Assembly: GCA_947175545.1 (NCBI GenBank)
Contig: CAMWNI010000003.1
Span: forward strand, 62,001 to 126,000
Direction of reading: 5' to 3'
DNA: 64,000 bases
Source: an uncultured Porphyromonadaceae bacterium
GTDB lineage: Bacteria; Bacteroidota; Bacteroidia; Bacteroidales; Muribaculaceae
The notes below the pieces were generated by a model. It made no database searches. It was not told the DNA's origin and saw only the letters and a program-made list of their open reading frames with translations. Below are positions 24,218 through 37,738 of this stretch, piece after piece. Position numbers and translations under genes: made by a program. Numbering within the stretch: position 1 is the first letter of the stretch; every line of letters starts with the position of its first letter.

Positions 24218-27070
24218 TTAGCGGACCACCTGCTTTTTGCCGTTGATGATGTAGACTCCGGGCTTTGCGCCGCGGAGAGTTTGCAGTGCTACTCCGGTCA
24301 GCGTGTAGATTGACGTTCCAGTGTCTGATATTTCAACTTCGCCTATGGAAGAGTCCGGATCAGGATCAACCGGTTCTGGCATGGCAGTCAACTCAAATCG
24401 AAACTTGCAACCCGTGTCCGATGTGTTTGTACCGTCCCCCCAGTTGTAAATCTGGTAGCCGAGGCTGGCGTTGGTCTGGTTCCACTGCGTCTTGTTAGAG
24501 GTCAGAATCATGTAGCCGATTTCGTCGGAAGCTGCGGGAGTCCAGCCGCGGGAGGGTTGGGACTTGACGGTTTTCAGAGCGCTGTTGGTCGAGGCGGATG
24601 GAGAGACATAGCCGCCGTCGGCATAGTTTATTATATTATAGGTGTCGGTATCGGTGCGCTTTTTGAAGGTCCATTTGGCGTCGTCGGTGATGCTTTCGAT
24701 TCCTGAGAGGGCTTTGTTCAGTCCGCCCGTGGCGGCATAGCGTCCGTTGCGCAGGGGCGTTGAAAGAGCGTAGGTCGCTCCGTCAACCGGCATGGAGAGG
24801 CCGGCTGCGGCGGCTGCCGTTTTCATTGCTTCGAAAGCTTCGCGCAGCTGCCGGGCCTGGGTTTCTCGCTCATTGGCCGTAAGGGTCTGGCTGAGGGTCT
24901 CGCGTATTTCAGCGGCAAGGCGGTCAAAGGATTCCGCAACTGCTTCAGGGTAGAATCCGGGAGTATCGCTTATGGAGGCGTTGCGCCACGAAGTCATTTC
25001 GGCCAGTTCGTCCATCAGGGCTTCGGCCTCCTGCTGTAGAATCCGGTTGGGCGAATAGATCAGTCCGTCGAGTGCTGTGTTGCCTTCAGGGTCGGTAATT
25101 ACAAAGGTGAATTGCCATTTATCGCGCCCTGTGCCGCCATTATTGGCATGGGGAAGCTTCATGAACACCTTGTTCCAGCCTTCGTTGAGGTGGATTCGGA
25201 CCGCAGGCCGCGCGGTGAAGTTTTCGTTCCGGAGGCCGGAGGAGATCTGGTCTTGCTTTATGTTAGCTCCGGGCTGAGTCCATTCGGGGGCGGCTATTTC
25301 GGTTCCGTTGAGCCACACGCGCGAGCCTCGGCGGTCCCATTTTCCGGCGTCCGGGCCTTTTTCGTTGCCTGAGCGACTGTAAGTGTAGAATTCAATCAGG
25401 GCGCCGGCTTCCTGCTCGCAGGGAGAGTAGACGTAGGTCCAGGCATAGGCGGTCATGTTGTTTTGCGGATTCTGATAGAAGCCTTTGACCGTGGGGTGCC
25501 AGATGTGGCGCAGATAGATTCCGGCGCCTGTGGCCGTACGGCCCGAGACTGATGAGGGCATCGTCTCGTCGGCAAGATAGTTTTCCGGTTCGAGAACGGC
25601 CGAGGGGTCTCCGCCGTTGGGAAGCTGATCTGTGACGAGCCAGCGAACGTTGGATTGTTTCACGTAGGGGATGAGATGGGCCGTTTCGGCCATAGTCGTG
25701 TGCTTGTGGTGTAGAAAACGGCGTTCCCAGTCGGCAAATTCTTCAAATTCGACTCCTGAGTTGGGGAGCGTGACGCCTCCCTGTTCGATGTACTGCTCGC
25801 CGCCTCCGGTCCACGCTCGCTCGCAGCTTGCAAGAATGTTTGCATATATGTTGTTCTGGCGCACGATGTCTTCCCATGACGGAGTCATTGTGTCGTTCCA
25901 TGCCGCGGAGATTGTGCCGGCAATGTCAGGATTGCCCTGCGTCTGGCCGAAGATTGTCGACTTGAAGATGCCGACGACATCGGCAAACACGTCGAAGTGG
26001 TTTGTATAGTTATAACGCATGTCAATGTTAGGCACTCCGGCACTCAGGGTGCCTGACGTGGCCCAGTTGGTTGTCAGGTCACAGGGAATCACCTTCGGAT
26101 CGACCGTCTTTGCCGGACTGTTGTAGCGATTCCAGATTACAGCTTTCTTGCCAAGAGAGTGGACATAGTCAATCATGTCAATCAGATAGCTGTCCTGGAA
26201 GCCGATTTCATCACCGCCGATGTGGATATATGGTGCTTTGTCAAACAGGTTGGCAACCTCCCTGAGTATAACCTTAAGCTCGGCGATGCCCTCGGCGGTC
26301 TGCATTGAATGGCCCATGGCGCTCTCGAATGGGTGCGAGTGGCCGGGCATATCAATTTCCGGAATGACGGTCATGCCGCGCTCGGCGGCATAGTCCTGAA
26401 TCTCGCGGGCCTGTTCCTGAGTGTAGAACATGCCGGGGAAGCGAGTAATTCCTTTTTCGCCGGTCAGCTGCGGGTAAGCCTTTATTTCGAGGCGCCAGCC
26501 GGTGTAGTCGGTCAGATGCCAGTGGAAAGTGTTGACCTTAAAGCGGCTGAGCAGGTCAATTTCGCGTTTGAGTTCATCAACTGGAATAAACGATCGGCCA
26601 ACGTCGTGCATGAAGCCGCGCAGCTTGAACGCGGGCCAGTCCTTGATTGTAGAACCCTCAATGACGCCATCGCAGTCCTGTGCCATCAGGCGCAGGGTCT
26701 GGGCGGCGCGGGTCACGCCGAGGACCGTCGGGGCCGTGATTGAGATTTCGTCAGACGCGACTGTCAGCAAGTAGGCCTCGGCAGGGTATCCGGCCAATTC
26801 ATAGTCGAAGGCGCCCTCGACCGGAGCGATAGTGACGGAGATGCGAGGTGCGTCGGCGTCGGCTGACAGGGTCAGGCCTGCGTCTGCCATAAAGCGTTTG
26901 AGTTCGGCTGATTCAGTGGGGTCGGAAATCAAAACCTGGCGATTGGTCGCGAAGCCTCCTGCTGCATCAAGAGAGACCTGCTTGGGTTTTGGCATGATAT
27001 TTTCGATTGTGGCGAATGCCGGAGAAGTCATTGCGAGTGCCAGTTCGGCAATGATTAGCTTGCGATTCAT
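24218..27070 (-). CDS. GH20-family beta-N-acetylhexosaminidase, multidomain, exported
   Basis: KLRGFMHDVGRSFIPVDEL, NTFHWHLTDYTGWRLEIKAYP, PEIDMPGHS, HIGGDEIGF; C-terminal ligand-binding-like domains and IYTLTGVAL...PGVYIINGKKQVVR tail. Confidence 0.92.
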   Translation of the reverse strand: MNRKLIIAELALAMTSPAFATIENIMPKPKQVSLDAAGGFATNRQVLISDPTESAELKRFMADAGLTLSADADAPRISVTIAPVEGAFDYELAGYPAEAYLLTVASDEISITAPTVLGVTRAAQTLRLMAQDCDGVIEGSTIKDWPAFKLRGFMHDVGRSFIPVDELKREIDLLSRFKVNTFHWHLTDYTGWRLEIKAYPQLTGEKGITRFPGMFYTQEQAREIQDYAAERGMTVIPEIDMPGHSHPFESAMGHSMQTAEGIAELKVILREVANLFDKAPYIHIGGDEIGFQDSYLIDMIDYVHSLGKKAVIWNRYNSPAKTVDPKVIPCDLTTNWATSGTLSAGVPNIDMRYNYTNHFDVFADVVGIFKSTIFGQTQGNPDIAGTISAAWNDTMTPSWEDIVRQNNIYANILASCERAWTGGGEQYIEQGGVTLPNSGVEFEEFADWERRFLHHKHTTMAETAHLIPYVKQSNVRWLVTDQLPNGGDPSAVLEPENYLADETMPSSVSGRTATGAGIYLRHIWHPTVKGFYQNPQNNMTAYAWTYVYSPCEQEAGALIEFYTYSRSGNEKGPDAGKWDRRGSRVWLNGTEIAAPEWTQPGANIKQDQISSGLRNENFTARPAVRIHLNEGWNKVFMKLPHANNGGTGRDKWQFTFVITDPEGNTALDGLIYSPNRILQQEAEALMDELAEMTSWRNASISDTPGFYPEAVAESFDRLAAEIRETLSQTLTANERETQARQLREAFEAMKTAAAAAGLSMPVDGATYALSTPLRNGRYAATGGLNKALSGIESITDDAKWTFKKRTDTDTYNIINYADGGYVSPSASTNSALKTVKSQPSRGWTPAASDEIGYMILTSNKTQWNQTNASLGYQIYNWGDGTNTSDTGCKFRFELTAMPEPVDPDPDSSIGEVEISDTGTSIYTLTGVALQTLRGAKPGVYIINGKKQVVR

Positions 27071-27127
27071 GGAAGAGCGATGATGTATGTTGTGTTAAAT
27101 TACTTGTTAACCGGAGTGTTAACTACT

Positions 27128-27137
27128 GCAAATATAG
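27128..27137 (-). promoter_or_regulatory. -7 box (TATATTTG) for GH20 gene, just after the candidate sRNA terminator
   Basis: Minus strand CTATATTTGCAG about 60 nt upstream of the GH20 ATG. Confidence 0.5.
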
Positions 27138-27154
27138 TGATTTATTTTTATTTA

Positions 27155-27243
27155 GACAAAAAAATCAGGACGTCATCACGACGTCCTGATTCCTTAACCT
27201 TTATCTTAATCTAATACTATGAAAAACACACGCTGCAAAGTTA
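27155..27243 (-). ncRNA. Candidate small RNA transcription unit (promoter to terminator)
   Basis: Minus strand: TTG-N19-TAACTTTG (-7 box 27236-27243), ~75 nt, then ATCAGGACGTC-GTGAT-GACGTCCTGAT followed by TTTTTTT; no ORF. Confidence 0.55.
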
Positions 27244-27505
27244 GTAACATTTTTCGAAACTGCAACACTCTCCACATTAGATTTAACCCATTTTAACAAA
27301 ATTATAACTCTTAATTGACTCTTTCACGGATTTTTTTGCGGACTTTCAGTTTTATATGGTTAAATCCTATCTTGAATACTCAAAGTGGACGATTCGGCTT
27401 ATATCTTGGGTAAATGGCTATTTCAGATTTTTGATTCTCAGTCATTCTTTCAGTTGATTTGCTGAATAGTTCCCTCCAGTTTATCTGTTGCTTTTGTGGA
27501 TAGGA

Positions 27506-28606
27506 TTAATAATCTATTTCTCTTATTAGCATTCCATCAAGAATATCGGTTCCCTGAAGGACTTCAAATTCGGTGAATTGAGGTTCCGATGATGTGTTTG
27601 CATTAACCGTATACCTGTTGTCTGCAATTTTTCCCTCAATAGGTTTGATGATCCCTCTTTTATGATATGTTATAATGCCGTCTGCGTTTTGTTCGGATTC
27701 GAGAATTTCAAAATAACTTGATGAAGTTAATCCTTCCTTTAGTCCGATATCTGCGGCTAGAGGAGATGTAGACCTAATAGGCGTTATTATTCGGAAGGGG
27801 GGATATTTTGTCTGCAGTTTAGCTATGTTTAAATCCAAACAACGTTTGACCACTTGTTGAATGAGCTGACGCTGAGATAGAGATGTGGAAGTCTCAGAAT
27901 ATTGTGTTGTTACCTTGTCCTGAAACTTGTACGAATAATTAGACTCCTTGATAAACTCTTTAGAGCCTGGGATGTAATGTACGCCATAAAATTCATCCAT
28001 ATGGTCAATATTCCAATCAAGTGAGTAGATATATGAAGTAACTTCTATGCAGAAGGAAACCTCCAAGCCTGTTTTGTCGAAGTCAGCTTTCTTGTTGCTA
28101 TATTTGCCATTGAAACAAATGTCATGAAAAATCAAGAATGTTTTGGGAATTAATCTCTCGCCGGCATCTTCTAATATACTTACCCCTCGCACTAATTGTT
28201 GAGCAATTTGACGGTCTAACTCGTTGGCATTATAAAGTCCGCGGGATTTAATCAAATCTACGTTAAAGTTTCCGGTTGTTTTATCCCACCCGAACCATTT
28301 TGCAACAGCTCGTGACCCAATATTTGTTTTTCGTATGAATGAATCAATATATTTTGTTTGATCGGTATATTCCTGAGTCGCAAATTTCACCACATTGACC
28401 CCTAATCCATGATCATTAAAGCGCGCATTAAGTGGAATTGATTTGTATGCTTCAACAATTTGATCGTTGAACGGATACATTGGATGTTCTATCATTATTT
28501 GAGTCAATGATGCCCGTTGATAGTTTTGGGACTCCTGACCTTTGGCAAATGATGATAGAACAGCCGGTAGAATTAGCGTTAGGAGTCTAATATATCCAGT
28601 CTTCAT
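27506..28606 (-). CDS. Exported hypothetical protein
   Basis: Signal peptide MKTGYIRLLTLILPAVLSSFAKGQ; start refined from 28630; overlaps the upstream gene stop by ~20 nt. Confidence 0.65.
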   Translation of the reverse strand: MKTGYIRLLTLILPAVLSSFAKGQESQNYQRASLTQIMIEHPMYPFNDQIVEAYKSIPLNARFNDHGLGVNVVKFATQEYTDQTKYIDSFIRKTNIGSRAVAKWFGWDKTTGNFNVDLIKSRGLYNANELDRQIAQQLVRGVSILEDAGERLIPKTFLIFHDICFNGKYSNKKADFDKTGLEVSFCIEVTSYIYSLDWNIDHMDEFYGVHYIPGSKEFIKESNYSYKFQDKVTTQYSETSTSLSQRQLIQQVVKRCLDLNIAKLQTKYPPFRIITPIRSTSPLAADIGLKEGLTSSSYFEILESEQNADGIITYHKRGIIKPIEGKIADNRYTVNANTSSEPQFTEFEVLQGTDILDGMLIREIDY

Positions 28607-29456
28607 CTTCGAGTTCAAATATAACTTCATCGTCTTTGGGATATAATCCTTTTTTCTTTAAATGTTTAATATTTTTCTTTATAAAACGATTCCATTTGAT
28701 GAAGCCTCCTTTTTTTATTTTTATATCTGAAGGTATTTCAAAGATTGAATCCGGCAAATCTGCATTTGGGATAATTTCTGTTACATCAAGTCCTAGGTAT
28801 GATTTTATGTGTTTTTTAAAAACTTTCATTTCCACTCTAATTTCCATGATGGCCTTGATTCTTGCCGGAATGCCATCTATATCTATACAATTAGCAATTG
28901 CTCCTGATGCGGCCTCGGATAATATAAATTGTGGAATGGTCTCAATAACTATATCATTTCGTGAATTGGATATCGGATTGTGAATCTCGAAATTTACATT
29001 ATATATTTTTGAAGAATAGCATAATACCTCACAATTTTCTTTGATAGGTGTAATTGTATATACATCGTAGGGAGGAAGTATATTACCTTTATATTGACGT
29101 TGGGCGTTTGACCAACTTTTTAACACCATCTCATAATCATCCCAGGATATTGCTACCCCCTTTCTCATGTAATGTCCCCACATTGTTATCGTCCCGGCGG
29201 AAGGATCATATAGAGTACTATAGTGTAGAGTGCTATCTACGGCTAAAGCCTTGTCATCTTTTATGAAATAACTAAACTTAGTCGCTCCGTTATATCCGAA
29301 TCCGCCGGAGATTTTCTCGGTGTTTCTGTCAAGATTATTGGTGCGTATTGCTTTGATTTCGCCTTCAAATTTAGTAGGAACTGGAACTGTCTGCCCGTGA
29401 AGATTAAGGCCGATGTTTCCACATAGTAGAATTGTTAGAGAAATAAGTTTTTTCAT
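28587..29456 (-). CDS. Exported hypothetical protein
   Basis: Signal peptide MKKLISLTILLCGNIGLNLHGQ; start refined from 29495. Confidence 0.65.
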   Translation of the reverse strand: MKKLISLTILLCGNIGLNLHGQTVPVPTKFEGEIKAIRTNNLDRNTEKISGGFGYNGATKFSYFIKDDKALAVDSTLHYSTLYDPSAGTITMWGHYMRKGVAISWDDYEMVLKSWSNAQRQYKGNILPPYDVYTITPIKENCEVLCYSSKIYNVNFEIHNPISNSRNDIVIETIPQFILSEAASGAIANCIDIDGIPARIKAIMEIRVEMKVFKKHIKSYLGLDVTEIIPNADLPDSIFEIPSDIKIKKGGFIKWNRFIKKNIKHLKKKGLYPKDDEVIFELEDEDWIY

Positions 29457-29482
29457 ATAAAAAGTATGGTTTGGTGTTTTAG

Positions 29483-30421
29483 TTAATGAAGCCACATCAG
29501 ATTGGTTGTATGTTGTTGCTGTCCTTTGCCGTATGCGACGCCTACTTCGCGGGCTGCTTCGATGCGTCGTTTTTCAATATCAATTGCATCATTGTATTTC
29601 TGGCGTAATTCAAAGTCGCGGTCGCTCTTGACTGACGACTTGATTTCTGTGGCTAAAGCCAGCGCCTGAGGGTAGGCTGATGTGTCGGGGTCAATCTGAA
29701 CGAGATATCCAAATGCATCGGAGGCTGCTTCTGCGTCATGGCCGGATGACCAGATTGCATTGGCGCGAGCCAATAGTGCGGTTCCTTGTTGGTCTATATA
29801 ACTCTGGAACATTTTCAGGCTCGTTTCACTTGCCTGCTTGTAACCTTTGCTGCATTCCGGAATCATGCTCAGTTTCCATAACGCTTCGTCGTAGTTGTGT
29901 TGAACCGCGGCCCTATCTGCCTGAGCAAGTATCTGAGGAAAGTTCGAGTCAAAGTAGCTGATGATTTTTTTCTTTGCGCTTGATATGAAGGCTGCTATGG
30001 TTTTATTCTGACCGTTGAGCAAACGCATTGAATTTATATATGCGCGCTCACTTGATGTCCCCACTCCGCGAAGGTCAAGTATGGTGGTTGCGTAGACGGT
30101 TTCGGACTGAATGTCGCCAATATAAAGTGTCAGGGTGGTATGGAGTGCCATCTGAGAAGGTGGCCCCGGAATCACATCTTCCATTATATGAGTGAATCGT
30201 CCGGCTATAAAGAATTGATTTGAGCTTTCGTCAACGGAAATCCCGTCGGAAGTCATGATGTTTTGCAGTTTGGTGACCATATAGTTCTCTGCGGCAGCGG
30301 GTACCGCCTCTGTTTGTGGAACTCGCACAATCGAAAGATTGATATTGCATTCTGCGTTTCCAACGGAGGATACCGCCAGGGAAAATAACGCGCATGCAGT
30401 TAGTTTGAAGATCTGTTTCAT
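29483..30421 (-). CDS. Exported protein with repeat-rich (TPR-like) C-terminal half
   Basis: Signal peptide MKQIFKLTACALFSLAVSSVGNA; helical A/Q-rich C-terminal half (AQADRAAVQHNYDEALWKLSMIPECSKGY). Confidence 0.65.
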   Translation of the reverse strand: MKQIFKLTACALFSLAVSSVGNAECNINLSIVRVPQTEAVPAAAENYMVTKLQNIMTSDGISVDESSNQFFIAGRFTHIMEDVIPGPPSQMALHTTLTLYIGDIQSETVYATTILDLRGVGTSSERAYINSMRLLNGQNKTIAAFISSAKKKIISYFDSNFPQILAQADRAAVQHNYDEALWKLSMIPECSKGYKQASETSLKMFQSYIDQQGTALLARANAIWSSGHDAEAASDAFGYLVQIDPDTSAYPQALALATEIKSSVKSDRDFELRQKYNDAIDIEKRRIEAAREVGVAYGKGQQQHTTNLMWLH

Positions 30422-30423
30422 GA

Positions 30424-31374
30424 TTATTTTTCTCCTAAAATTAAATCAACGCGTCCAAGGCCCTTGGTCACGACTTTCGATTGTATATTATATGGAGCCT
30501 GACGTAGATGTTTGCGCAGGTTTGTTGCAAAATGACGCGTATCCATTGGCATCCCGTTTTCGCGATATAAAGGGATGCGTACCTGTTCGAAGGCTAAGTG
30601 TGTTTCGCCGGCAGCGGACAGATTATAGCGATGGTTTACCGTGTTGTTCGCCATCCAGTTGTCAATTATATCGGTAAGCTCTTCTCCGCCATATTCGGAC
30701 TCAAGCGATAAATCTGAACCATTGTCGAACACTTTTACATTAAAGACTATTTCTCGCCCGTTTTCAAGCAGATCATCGAAATGAGCCTGAAGTTGAGAAA
30801 TAAAGTTATCCATATTTGCAAGCACAGCCTCCTCAATCAGAACCGGAATTTCGGCTGTGAATGATTGTGGACCGGTACCCTGAGCGGCTGCAATTTGCTT
30901 ATTCGTGTACGCGTCAATTCCGCGTAGTGTGTAAGTTATGGAGCGTTTGGGCCCTATAGTATTAACTTTCCATGCGAGTTCAACCAGTATGTCTCCTTTC
31001 GCGCGTGCCATCAACTTCTCCAAAGGAGTCTCTGCAAGCACTGCTCCGGAATTGCGGCTTGTTGTCATTTCGTCTTCGATTACTGACCGGTTGAGGTCGC
31101 GGATGGTTGAGTGCATATCCTTTAACGGGAATCCGCGTTCTGCCATCAATTCTCCTATTTTGGTTGTCGCGTTAAACAGATTGCTGTTTTCCTGATATGC
31201 ACGTTCATAGTCGGCAACTTTGGTCGATTTTCCCTGCATACTGTAGGTGGTCGTGTACCCATTTTCAAAACACCATACTTCTGCCGGCATTACCATGAGG
31301 GTAGGTTTCTTTGCTTGTCCGTATGCCCACGCTGTCGTGGCAATTATTGCAAAAATGCTTACTATTCTTTTCAT
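30424..31374 (-). CDS. Exported protein resembling DUF6175
   Basis: Signal peptide MKRIVSIFAIIATTAWAYGQ; KPTLMVMPAEVWCFENGYT...; family name recalled, not searched. Confidence 0.6.
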   Translation of the reverse strand: MKRIVSIFAIIATTAWAYGQAKKPTLMVMPAEVWCFENGYTTTYSMQGKSTKVADYERAYQENSNLFNATTKIGELMAERGFPLKDMHSTIRDLNRSVIEDEMTTSRNSGAVLAETPLEKLMARAKGDILVELAWKVNTIGPKRSITYTLRGIDAYTNKQIAAAQGTGPQSFTAEIPVLIEEAVLANMDNFISQLQAHFDDLLENGREIVFNVKVFDNGSDLSLESEYGGEELTDIIDNWMANNTVNHRYNLSAAGETHLAFEQVRIPLYRENGMPMDTRHFATNLRKHLRQAPYNIQSKVVTKGLGRVDLILGEK

Positions 31375-31379
31375 TTTGG

Positions 31380-31871
31380 TTAGATTTTTATGACGTTGTC
31401 ATCTGTCAACCGTTTCTTCAAGGATGTGCGGTCAACTATCACCACAACCCCCCATGCTTCCATTGATGAATTTGCCGATTTGATTCGTGAGGTTCGTCTC
31501 TCTTCCAGTTGCACATAGTTGTTAAAAGCGCCCCCGTCGGAAAAGAACGCGTTAAAGTAATCCTCATATCGTTTGCGGGCGTTAGGCTCGTTAACTAACG
31601 GACGCTTGTTACACTCCGCCGTTCCGGAGGTGATACCACTGAAAATAACCGTTTCAATCGCCCTGCGTTTGGCTTGCTCAATGGCTTTGTCCTTGTTAAT
31701 ACCATTACCCCAAGAGCGCAGTGTCTGCATTCCTTCCGGGTCAACACCCATACATTCAACCTTGAAACGAGAGGTGGCATATTCATTTGAGATGTGAGTT
31801 TGAGTCTTACATGACGAAAACCCAAGTAGGATTACGGATATTGCTGTAATTATAATCTTTTTTGTTGACAT
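31380..31871 (-). CDS. LPP20-like lipoprotein
   Basis: Lipobox MSTKKIIITAISVILLGFSSC; AIEQAKRRAIETVIFSGI; FNAFFSDGGAFNNYV. Confidence 0.6.
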   Translation of the reverse strand: MSTKKIIITAISVILLGFSSCKTQTHISNEYATSRFKVECMGVDPEGMQTLRSWGNGINKDKAIEQAKRRAIETVIFSGITSGTAECNKRPLVNEPNARKRYEDYFNAFFSDGGAFNNYVQLEERRTSRIKSANSSMEAWGVVVIVDRTSLKKRLTDDNVIKI

Positions 31872-32117
31872 ATAAGTTATTTAAATTAGTAGTCTATTAT
31901 ATTGTTAAGATTATTTTTTATGGTATAATCATCTGGATAACAGGTTGGTACTGGGCCTATTGCCCGATTTATACGTGAGATGCGATAAATGTCGAGCAAC
32001 GTGGCTATTTGGAATAAGGTTATCATATTTGCCAATGGCATAGTGCAAGTATACTTCGAAAAGTTCTGCCGCGCAGAAAACGATGAGTTAACATAACAGC
32101 TGTATTTATGAATTGTA

Positions 32118-32603
32118 TCAGAACGCCGAATTAAGTGATTTAACTACTCCTGCCTCTTGCAGGTATTTTATCAGAACCTCTTTCTCTACTGTTACTTTTG
32201 CGGATACTCTAAATTCTTTCCCCACTTTTGTGATTGAACGAGAGCCATTGATTACATTTCCGTAATTCTTTGAAAGTCCGGTTGCACTGAAAAAGTCTTT
32301 GTAGAAGTCAGCGTGTTGAGCCTCATTTGACGCACTACCCGCAAGTGGTTTCTGGAAACCTCTGCCGTTGGGATTGCTGAATCCGCGGAAAAGAACACCG
32401 TGAACAGCCGCACTGATGAGTTGTTGGTCCGATACGGTCTTATTTTTGGATAAAACTGAGATGTCAACTAGATAAGACCCTTGAATTGCAGTGCCTGCGC
32501 CTGCAATTTCATAGTGTGGAACACCATCTTCTATCTTTTTAGCCTCAATAGGGGAGACAAGAAGGCTGAGAATCGCAATCAGACAAAGATATATTTTTCC
32601 CAT
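32118..32603 (-). CDS. Exported protein, divergent paralogue of the LPP20-like lipoprotein
   Basis: Signal peptide MGKIYLCLIAILSLLVSPIEA; AAVHGVLFRGF...DFYKDFFSATGLSKNYGNVI aligns with the 31380-31871 product. Confidence 0.6.
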   Translation of the reverse strand: MGKIYLCLIAILSLLVSPIEAKKIEDGVPHYEIAGAGTAIQGSYLVDISVLSKNKTVSDQQLISAAVHGVLFRGFSNPNGRGFQKPLAGSASNEAQHADFYKDFFSATGLSKNYGNVINGSRSITKVGKEFRVSAKVTVEKEVLIKYLQEAGVVKSLNSAF

Positions 32604-32642
32604 AATTGTTTAATTGATGAATTAAATTATATTTGTTCGTCA

Positions 32643-32698
32643 CAAAGTTAAATAAAATTTCACAGTTTACCCCCCCCAATTGTTAAACTATGTTAAAT
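32643..32698 (-). promoter_or_regulatory. Operator/G8/-7 promoter, copy A
   Basis: Minus strand: TTTAACATAGTTTAAC-AATT-G8-N19-TAACTTTG. Confidence 0.6.
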
Positions 32699-32800
32699 GT
32701 AGGATTAATAATGGCACTTGAACAATTTGAGGGTCAGGGGCGTTTCTATGATATAGCAAATGTTTTCAACTTTTATTTACTCTGAAACTGATAATTTCTT

Positions 32801-33583
32801 ATGAAACTTACTTTTCTTGGTACCGGAACCAGTACCGGTGTGCCGCAAATTATGTGTAACTGCCCGACGTGTCAGAGCCGTGATGATCATGACAAGCGTC
32901 TGCGCTGTTCGGCAATGGTGACTTATAAGGGCAAGAATATTCTGATTGATTGCGGACCGGACTTCCGTCAGCAGATGTTAACCCAGGGATCTCCTATGCT
33001 GGAGGCTCTTCTGGTGACCCACAGTCATTACGACCACGTTGGTGGCGTTGACGATTTGCGGCCTTATTGCGCCATGGGTGACGGTTTCCCGATTTATTGT
33101 CGTCCGGATGTTGCCGGCGATCTTCGCGACCGCGTTCCTTATTGTTTCGCTGAGGCGCCTTATCCCGGAGTTCCGGCGTTTAATATTACGGAAGTGACAA
33201 CGAAGCCGTTTCAGGTTGCCGATCTTGAGGTTGTGCCGTTGCCGGTGATGCATCATAGGCTGCCGATTATCGGTTTCAAGATGGAAAATCTTGCGTACAT
33301 TACCGACGCGAAGATTATTCCTGATTCAACTCTGGAGCTGATTCGCGGTGTGGATACTTTGGTTATCAATGCGCTTAGGCTGAAGGACCATCACTCACAC
33401 ATGAATCTCCAGCAGGCTCTGGACGTTATTGCAGAGGTAAAACCCCGAGTGGCATATCTGACTCATCTGAGCCATGGCATCGGTCCGGCGGTGGAGGCGA
33501 GTCTGCGTCTGCCCGATGGTGTCAAACTTGCCTACGACGGATTAGTAATTCATATCCCTGATCAATTCGATGAAAATGAATAG
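32801..33583 (+). CDS. MBL-fold metallohydrolase (PhnP-like)
   Basis: MKLTFLGTGTSTGVPQIMCNCPTC; THSHYDHVGGVDDLRPYC; LKDHHSHMNLQQALD; YLTHLSHGI. Confidence 0.93.
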   Translation: MKLTFLGTGTSTGVPQIMCNCPTCQSRDDHDKRLRCSAMVTYKGKNILIDCGPDFRQQMLTQGSPMLEALLVTHSHYDHVGGVDDLRPYCAMGDGFPIYCRPDVAGDLRDRVPYCFAEAPYPGVPAFNITEVTTKPFQVADLEVVPLPVMHHRLPIIGFKMENLAYITDAKIIPDSTLELIRGVDTLVINALRLKDHHSHMNLQQALDVIAEVKPRVAYLTHLSHGIGPAVEASLRLPDGVKLAYDGLVIHIPDQFDENE

Positions 33584-33974
33584 CACAACTTTATCTCCCC
33601 GAATAGTTGCCCTTGGCGGCGACGGCATAGCCGCTGTTTTCCCTTCAGGAGTGGTAGTTTTTAATTTTGAAAACGATGATGAAGGCAAATTGTCACAGCT
33701 GTTGAGCGCAGCGCCCATAAAGCCGGTGACATTTCTTGCGACGAGGTTTACTCCGCAGGTATTCTCGCAGGCTGAAACCCGCAATCGTACGTTCATTTTT
33801 TCGGAAAAGTTCATTGATCGCAACGGTGTCAGCGCGGAATATCCCGTCCAGTGGCTTGCCGAAGGCAATCTGATTCCGATGGTGCCGGGCAATTTTCAGG
33901 TAACCGCTACGTCGACCGGCTTTGAGGTCGAAACGGTTGATCCTGACCCTGCCATGAAGTATGTGTTCGATTAA
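33570..33974 (+). CDS. Hypothetical protein
   Basis: 134 aa ORF overlapping the MBL gene stop by 14 nt, same strand. Confidence 0.55.
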   Translation: MKMNSTTLSPRIVALGGDGIAAVFPSGVVVFNFENDDEGKLSQLLSAAPIKPVTFLATRFTPQVFSQAETRNRTFIFSEKFIDRNGVSAEYPVQWLAEGNLIPMVPGNFQVTATSTGFEVETVDPDPAMKYVFD

Positions 33975-34036
33975 TTCGAAATTAAAGTTAAAAGTAATAT
34001 TCCCTTTGTGGGGCGAGAGCCTCAGGATGCGGGAAT

Positions 34037-37244: not shown

Positions 37245-37298
37245 TTTAACATAGTTTAACAAATGGGGGGGGTAGTTGCTACTTTTTCTTTAACTTTG
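37245..37298 (+). promoter_or_regulatory. Operator/G8/-7 promoter, copy B
   Basis: TTTAACATAGTTTAAC-AAAT-G8-N18-TAACTTTG. Confidence 0.6.
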
Positions 37299-37348: not shown

Positions 37349-37738
37349 ATGAAAAAAGTTTCAACGATTTTAACCCTTTTCTTTGCCAGCGTTTTCATGC
37401 TGACATTAAGTTCTTGTGGTGACAGTTCCGATGGCCTCAGCGGGTGGTATGTAAGCTCCGGTGCTGATAATGGTGGTGGCGGTGCCTATAATTTTGTTAG
37501 CAGCAAAAATGTTGAGGTTTATACATCCTTGTACCCTTATCGGTATAGTTATCCGGATTGGATGAAAAACAATATTGTCACAGTCAAAGGTACGAAGTAC
37601 CGCTATAATTATAAGAGCAATTACACCTATACATATAAAGATGGAGTCATCTATATCCCGATGGCAGGTCAGATGCTGAACAAGTCAGGCAATACGCTTC
37701 GTCGCGACGGCTCAAGCGACACTTTCATCAAGCGCTGA
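37349..37738 (+). CDS. Small hypothetical lipoprotein
   Basis: Lipobox MKKVSTILTLFFASVFMLTLSSC; Tyr/Gly-rich. Confidence 0.7.
   Translation: MKKVSTILTLFFASVFMLTLSSCGDSSDGLSGWYVSSGADNGGGGAYNFVSSKNVEVYTSLYPYRYSYPDWMKNNIVTVKGTKYRYNYKSNYTYTYKDGVIYIPMAGQMLNKSGNTLRRDGSSDTFIKR

Follow-up and report, generated by a model that had tools for sequence, protein, structure and literature searches.

Two near-identical elements in the window, i.e., the whole stretch of 64,000 nucleotides analysed here, lie in front of genes for exported proteins. We propose, with a probability of about 0.74, that both are promoters of a single regulon, composed mostly of surface proteins, that is bound by the response regulator RR1 and has a run of G residues in place of the usual -33 element. 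We conclude that the element is a regulated promoter belonging to a surface-protein regulon spread across the lineage, the G run at -33 being its new feature, and promoters of this type have apparently not been described so far: a search of open-access full text for a poly-G or TTAAC promoter in Muribaculaceae found no description of the motif. The window is part of contig C3 of a 2.23-Mb draft genome (G000).

Copy A occupies positions 32698-32643 on the minus strand. It has an operator-like direct repeat with a 10-bp period (TTTAAC-ATAG-TTTAAC, i.e., TTTAACATAGTTTAAC, at 32682..32697), which matches the family-wide consensus TTAAC-N5-TTAAC, followed by eight G residues in the -33 position (G8; 32670..32677) and a -7 box, TAACTTTG, at 32643..32650, which conforms to the consensus TAnnTTTG (PMC7366714, PMC9723704). 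Copy B lies on the plus strand (37245-37298) and has the same operator (TTTAAC-ATAG-TTTAAC, 37245..37260), a G8 run (37265..37272) and the same -7 box, TAACTTTG (37291..37298). The minus-strand sequence of copy A was identical to that quoted in a preliminary description of this DNA. Its statements that the two copies are nearly the same through the G run, and that their spacers are unlike, also proved accurate, since 27 of 28 positions agreed and the distance from the G run to the box was 19 bp in copy A and 18 bp in copy B. From the first TTAAC through the last base of the box, the copies span 54 and 53 bp, respectively, and their flanks are unrelated. Allowing up to three mismatches, the operator 16-mer occurred four times in the window against an expectation of 0.25, two of these occurrences being exact. 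Runs of seven Gs by themselves were not enriched in the window (six found, five expected), so the composite, rather than the G run alone, was tested as the signal.

In its general form the composite reads TTAAC-N5-TTAAC-N(0-6)-G(6-12)-TA-...-TAnnTTTG. The genome-wide search that the preliminary description had called for revealed that the motif recurs both throughout the genome and throughout the family, in front of genes for exported proteins. The exact 16-mer was rejected as a search pattern because it was too strict, the family consensus being the shorter TTAAC-N5-TTAAC. The full composite was present five times in G000, with no match for the reversed pattern used as a control; there were at least six sites at which a TTTAAC pair (one mismatch allowed) was followed by at least six Gs, and six sites with a G run and a -7 box fitted one form. 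Using the pattern TTAAC-N5-TTAAC-N(1-6)-G6+-N-TAnnTTTG, we found the composite in 88 of 159 sampled Muribaculaceae genomes, in which the reversed pattern gave one match in total. When 394 genomes from across the order were sampled, only Muribaculaceae and two further families (f22 and f28) contained matches, the other Bacteroidales families in that sample giving zero. A strict search among GTDB representatives gave 24 stretches, almost all from Bacteroidales or its families, and in 20 of them the TAnnTTTG box ended 44-55 bp after the start of the operator.

Several individual loci merit a brief description. At one (L032:5950-6638), two promoters with G runs of seven and eight, both with the 54-bp geometry, are arranged in series, 175 bp apart, in front of one lipoprotein gene. 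In genome G020 there are two pairs (L325/L328 and L326/L327) of near-identical promoter, leader and signal-peptide start, with G runs of 10/10 and 9/9; these pairs are duplicated expression cassettes for exported proteins. The sequence TTTAACATTCTTTAAC lies in a repeat common to four contig ends of G000 (L008, L011, L013 and L015, on C10, C12, C21 and C33); this repeat is probably a mobile element at which the assembly was interrupted.

The spacing of the composite is constrained. Among 145 parsed sites the G run varied from 6 to 12 residues, with a mode of 8, and in more than 90% of them the next two bases were TA. The span that starts at the first TTAAC and closes with the -7 box measured 54 bp in 67 of these sites and 53-55 bp in 111. 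In the main group of 136 sites, the variance of the total length was 1.49, compared with 4.53 when the three segments were permuted independently, and none of 5000 permutations gave a variance as low as that observed. Longer G runs were paired with shorter flanks; with both the G run and its flanks variable and the distance from operator to box nonetheless close to 54 bp, these lengths compensate for one another. The preliminary description had placed an operator in front of a -7 box and had argued that slippage in the G run would alter the spacing between them; an operator-like direct repeat at a fixed distance from the box was borne out, and the permutation test adds to the second point that the distance is one under constraint.

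We also examined what occupies the -33 position. Promoters of Bacteroides fragilis have TAnnTTTG at -7 and TTTG at about -33 (PMC7366714). In the composite, the TAnnTTTG box characteristic of the Bacteroidota primary sigma factor lies shortly upstream of the coding region, whereas the -33 TTTG of such promoters (PMC7366714, PMC9723704) is replaced by the G run, which in most sites precedes the -7 box by 18-21 nt. Of 57 ordinary G000 promoters, 16 had a TTG whose last base was 20 nt upstream of that box and 5 had one at 19 nt, i.e., in the slot to which the preliminary description had assigned the G8 run. The operator has the form expected for regulators of the OmpR/PhoB type, with half-sites of 5-6 bp repeated directly every 10-11 bp close to a promoter. 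When Gs were not required, 64 sites with a TTTAAC pair and a -7 box were recovered, of which 32 had a G run of 6-9 and 26 had at most 2 Gs, so the G run is close to all-or-none. The two groups peaked at different spacings. As the G-poor pairs (about half of the sites) do not share the spacing peak of the G-run group, they mostly look like background and were set aside, the promoters of RR1 being the exception.

Copy A precedes six genes on the minus strand, all of which encode exported proteins. The first (32118..32603) encodes a protein of 161 aa with a signal peptide and has orthologues with the same promoter in three other genomes. It is followed by a putative lipoprotein of 163 aa (31380..31871), a conserved neighbor; an exported DUF6175 protein (PF19672, by Pfam match; 30424..31374); another conserved neighbor, exported, of 312 aa (29483..30421); a protein of 302 aa with a signal peptide starting from an internal Met (28587..29495), for which no relatives were found among the loci compared; and a sparsely conserved exported protein of 374 aa (27506..28630). 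DUF6175 was the sole family above cut-off in a Pfam/NCBIfam scan of this cluster. Behind copy B, on the plus strand, is a gene for a lipoprotein of 129 aa with the lipobox LSSC (37349..37738). The region around the exported cluster (26001-34000) has a G+C content of 39-46%, compared with about 52% elsewhere, which is compatible with either foreign origin or relaxed composition.

The order of the first four genes of the cluster is kept in many genomes of the family. The same promoter, always with a G8 run, was present at the orthologous clusters of G003, G004 and G154, the last of these belonging to another genus. At the orthologous cluster of G007 the TTAAC pair and the -7 box were present and the tract was interrupted (GGTAAGGGTGGGTGGGAG; AAGGGTGGGTGGGAG). 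In several other genomes the gene cluster was found and such a promoter was not seen there, and when DUF6175 loci were used as a stand-in for copy A, a G-run site was present in only 3 of 30 in the flank examined.

A signal peptide or lipobox was predicted, by a home-made heuristic based on a simple hydropathy rule, for 80 of 108 distinct genes downstream of the composite, against 53 of 176 open frames of G000 regions (Fisher p = 3e-13). Read by eye rather than by profile matches, the downstream genes comprised lipoproteins, proteins like TonB-dependent receptors, and, recurrently, members of a family (about 195 aa) similar to proteins of fimbrial clusters. The regulon thus appears to be mostly one of cell-surface or exported proteins, with predicted targets that include proteins resembling the products of fimbrial-cluster and adhesin genes as well as the DUF6175 cluster. 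At two loci of genus g4 (L099 and L124), the genes directly after the G-run promoters are small and XRE-like, with a helix-turn-helix, and in this differ from the usual exported targets.

G000 encodes just two DNA-binding domains of the OmpR type. One is that of RprY, an NCBIfam equivalog match at 447 bits (cut-off 370), and the other is that of RR1, a protein of 234 aa encoded on contig C1 at about 280,458-281,159 (L291:3956-4660). RR1 matched the NCBIfam model for Bacteroidota PhoB, NF053854, with 299 bits (cut-off 270). The kinase encoded downstream of RR1 scored 336 bits, below the PhoR cut-off of 500, with only its C-terminal kinase part in the best stretch; of the two partners of a Pho regulon, a PhoB-family regulator was found and a PhoR kinase was not. 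In a tree, RR1 stood apart from both Muribaculaceae PhoB paralogues and from PhoB of other families, and the one paralogue and one other-family member tested matched the PhoB model with higher scores than RR1.

RR1 has a matching site in its own promoter, a feature expected of an OmpR/PhoB-type regulator: in G000, GTTAACATTATTTAAC lies 33 nt before TAACTTTG. A strict TTAAC pair was found within 260 bp upstream of RR1 in 22 of 30 orthologues, and a strict or near-match pair in 28 of 30, compared with a strict pair in 5 of 410 control upstream regions. Two of four further members of the RR1 clade also had the pair (24 of 34 for the clade), and none of 16 PhoB paralogues or other-family PhoB genes had it upstream. 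In the RR1 promoters the distance between the TTAAC pair and the -7 box was mostly 45-46 or 56-57 bp, two values about one helical turn apart, with no G run; the -7 boxes of these promoters (L291, L295-L324) are often degenerate. Genomes in which RR1 reached at least 55% identity carried more sites (mean 1.6 versus 0.4, p = 6e-4), a difference that is inflated by shared ancestry. Some genomes with RR1 had no strict site, and four (G038, G057, G068 and G072) had sites and no RR1 match at the threshold used.

DAP-seq of PhoP from Riemerella anatipestifer, a distantly related member of the Bacteroidota, identified TTTAACA as the most conserved bases and gave a peak at the operon of PhoP itself; the majority of the annotated direct targets are in the membrane (PMC9603813). 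The TTTAAC core, the bound promoter of the regulator itself and the membrane-protein targets are therefore points of likeness with the system described here, the comparison of RR1 with Riemerella PhoP being made at the level of motif and targets. Because the TTAAC pair is present in RR1's own promoter and Riemerella PhoP binds TTTAACA, the regulator of the pair is likely to be a PhoB-type response regulator. The TTAAC pair also resembles operators of the PhoB/PhoP type, including those of B. fragilis PhoB (PMC3547664), in being a direct repeat with a period of about one turn and in having a candidate regulator of the NF053854 family. RR1 differs in belonging to a clade apart from Muribaculaceae PhoB and in having a partner kinase that fails the PhoR cut-off, and here the targets are surface proteins whose promoters have a G run at -33. 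Overall, the earlier suggestion that copy A is a regulator-controlled promoter is well supported by the recurrence of the motif, its fixed spacing and the existence of RR1 as a candidate regulator.

On this basis we infer that RR1 is the binder. RR1, a member of the OmpR/PhoB winged-helix class, would bind the TTAAC-N5-TTAAC repeat at about -58 to -44 and would recruit RNA polymerase containing the primary sigma factor to a TAnnTTTG box ending about 54 bp after the start of the operator. With a G run of 6-12 residues in place of the TTTG that is normally contacted at -33, little promoter activity would be expected unless the regulator is present. Activation is the presumed effect, and RR1 could instead repress. 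Each base gained or lost by slippage in the G run would shift the operator by 1 bp with respect to the box, which would make graded variation in expression possible.

What the G run does may be read in two ways, both compatible with binding by RR1. It could be a fixed contact element, with a second protein or the polymerase reading G-rich DNA at -33 and a homopolymer being its simplest version; we consider the odds of this to be about even. It would account for the position of the run, in most sites 18-21 nt ahead of the -7 box, with TA after it in over 90% of sites, and for the G-rich variants in the same place, i.e., an interrupted one at L244 and AGAAATGG variants in G209. Moreover, the TTAAC pair is used without Gs in the promoters of RR1 itself, and the G run may therefore depend on a further factor. 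However, a range of 6 to 12 is unusual for a base-specific contact, and interruptions of the run are rare.

Alternatively, the homopolymer may have been retained for its slippage. A changed run length would displace the operator with respect to the -7 box, or modify the -33 region, and would thereby switch or grade expression of surface proteins among the cells of a clonal population; the regulon would then be phase-variable, as the preliminary description had suggested for the promoter at copy A. Surface genes are the usual targets of phase variation, and uninterrupted runs of 6-12 Gs lie in front of such genes at a position that bears on promoter geometry. Some near-identical promoters differ in tract length (9 and 8 Gs in G007; 7, 7 and 6 in G209; 8 and 7 in G033), as do the orthologues L105 and L109, which have 11 and 9 Gs between nearly identical flanks. 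Because the spacing is constrained, an insertion or deletion in the run should matter. There are also precedents. In Treponema pallidum, poly-G tracts of about 7-11 lie in the promoters of tpr outer-membrane-protein genes, and these promoters are bound by a CRP homologue, Tp0262, as well (PMC7864442). Those tracts are proven to vary in length, but T. pallidum has no operator or regulator in common with the Muribaculaceae promoter, in which the G run separates the operator from the -7 box with the distance compensated. In Neisseria meningitidis, a simple repeat between operators sets the spacing between the sites for NadR and the core promoter of nadA (PMC2791445), and at opc a repeat, in that case poly-C, covers the -35 region (as described in PMC7864442). 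Both differ in being demonstrated cases of phase variation that concern single genes rather than a lineage-wide regulon, and nadA is controlled by a repressor.

Against phase variation, G8 was kept at copy A in four orthologous clusters, the tract of the fifth being interrupted; the modal length of 8 is short; and tract lengths were equal within the two duplicate pairs of G020. Changes between paralogues or orthologues were usually 0-2 bp, and many of the genomes are draft metagenome assemblies in which homopolymer length can be wrong. As 111 of 145 sites have a spacing of 53-55 bp, a deviation of about 1 bp in either direction is tolerated, and a single slip may therefore have little effect. 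We therefore regard phase variation as a tentative proposal, with the balance tipped against it. The combined scheme, in which a response regulator and slippage of the tract at -33 jointly set many Muribaculaceae surface proteins, so that cells would carry stochastically tuned combinations of promoters under one signal, is slightly less probable still.

Another regulator, either RprY or a factor outside the OmpR class, might bind the TTAAC pair and control RR1, although we think this improbable. RprY is the only other OmpR-type regulator in G000, and some genomes with sites lack an RR1 match at the threshold. However, the strict pair was absent from the 8-kb region around rprXY, and among the families sampled only Muribaculaceae and two others have the motif, whereas RprY is a regulator conserved across Bacteroidota. 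Nor was the pair found upstream of the PhoB paralogues of RR1, and the Riemerella protein that binds TTTAACA is a PhoP (PMC9603813). Finally, a chance or copied repeat, i.e., non-regulatory remnants of mobile sequence, to which the duplicated leaders and gene starts of G020 might point, is refuted by the spacing constraint and the family-wide recurrence, the flanks of copies A and B being unrelated, spacer sequences differing while spacing is kept, and the 145 parsed sites lying in diverse contexts, mostly just upstream of start codons.

The reading that we favor, a surface-protein regulon bound by RR1, bears on a family that dominates the mouse gut and about whose gene regulation, to our knowledge, little has been reported. 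It provides a concrete regulon for Muribaculaceae: the promoter can be recognized, a two-component regulator is proposed as a candidate, and the surface-protein targets are listed, each of which can be tested in cultured members. Surface variation in Bacteroidales is known mainly from DNA inversion; if the G run also slips, a simple repeat, i.e., a homopolymer, would be a source of surface variation alongside those inversions.
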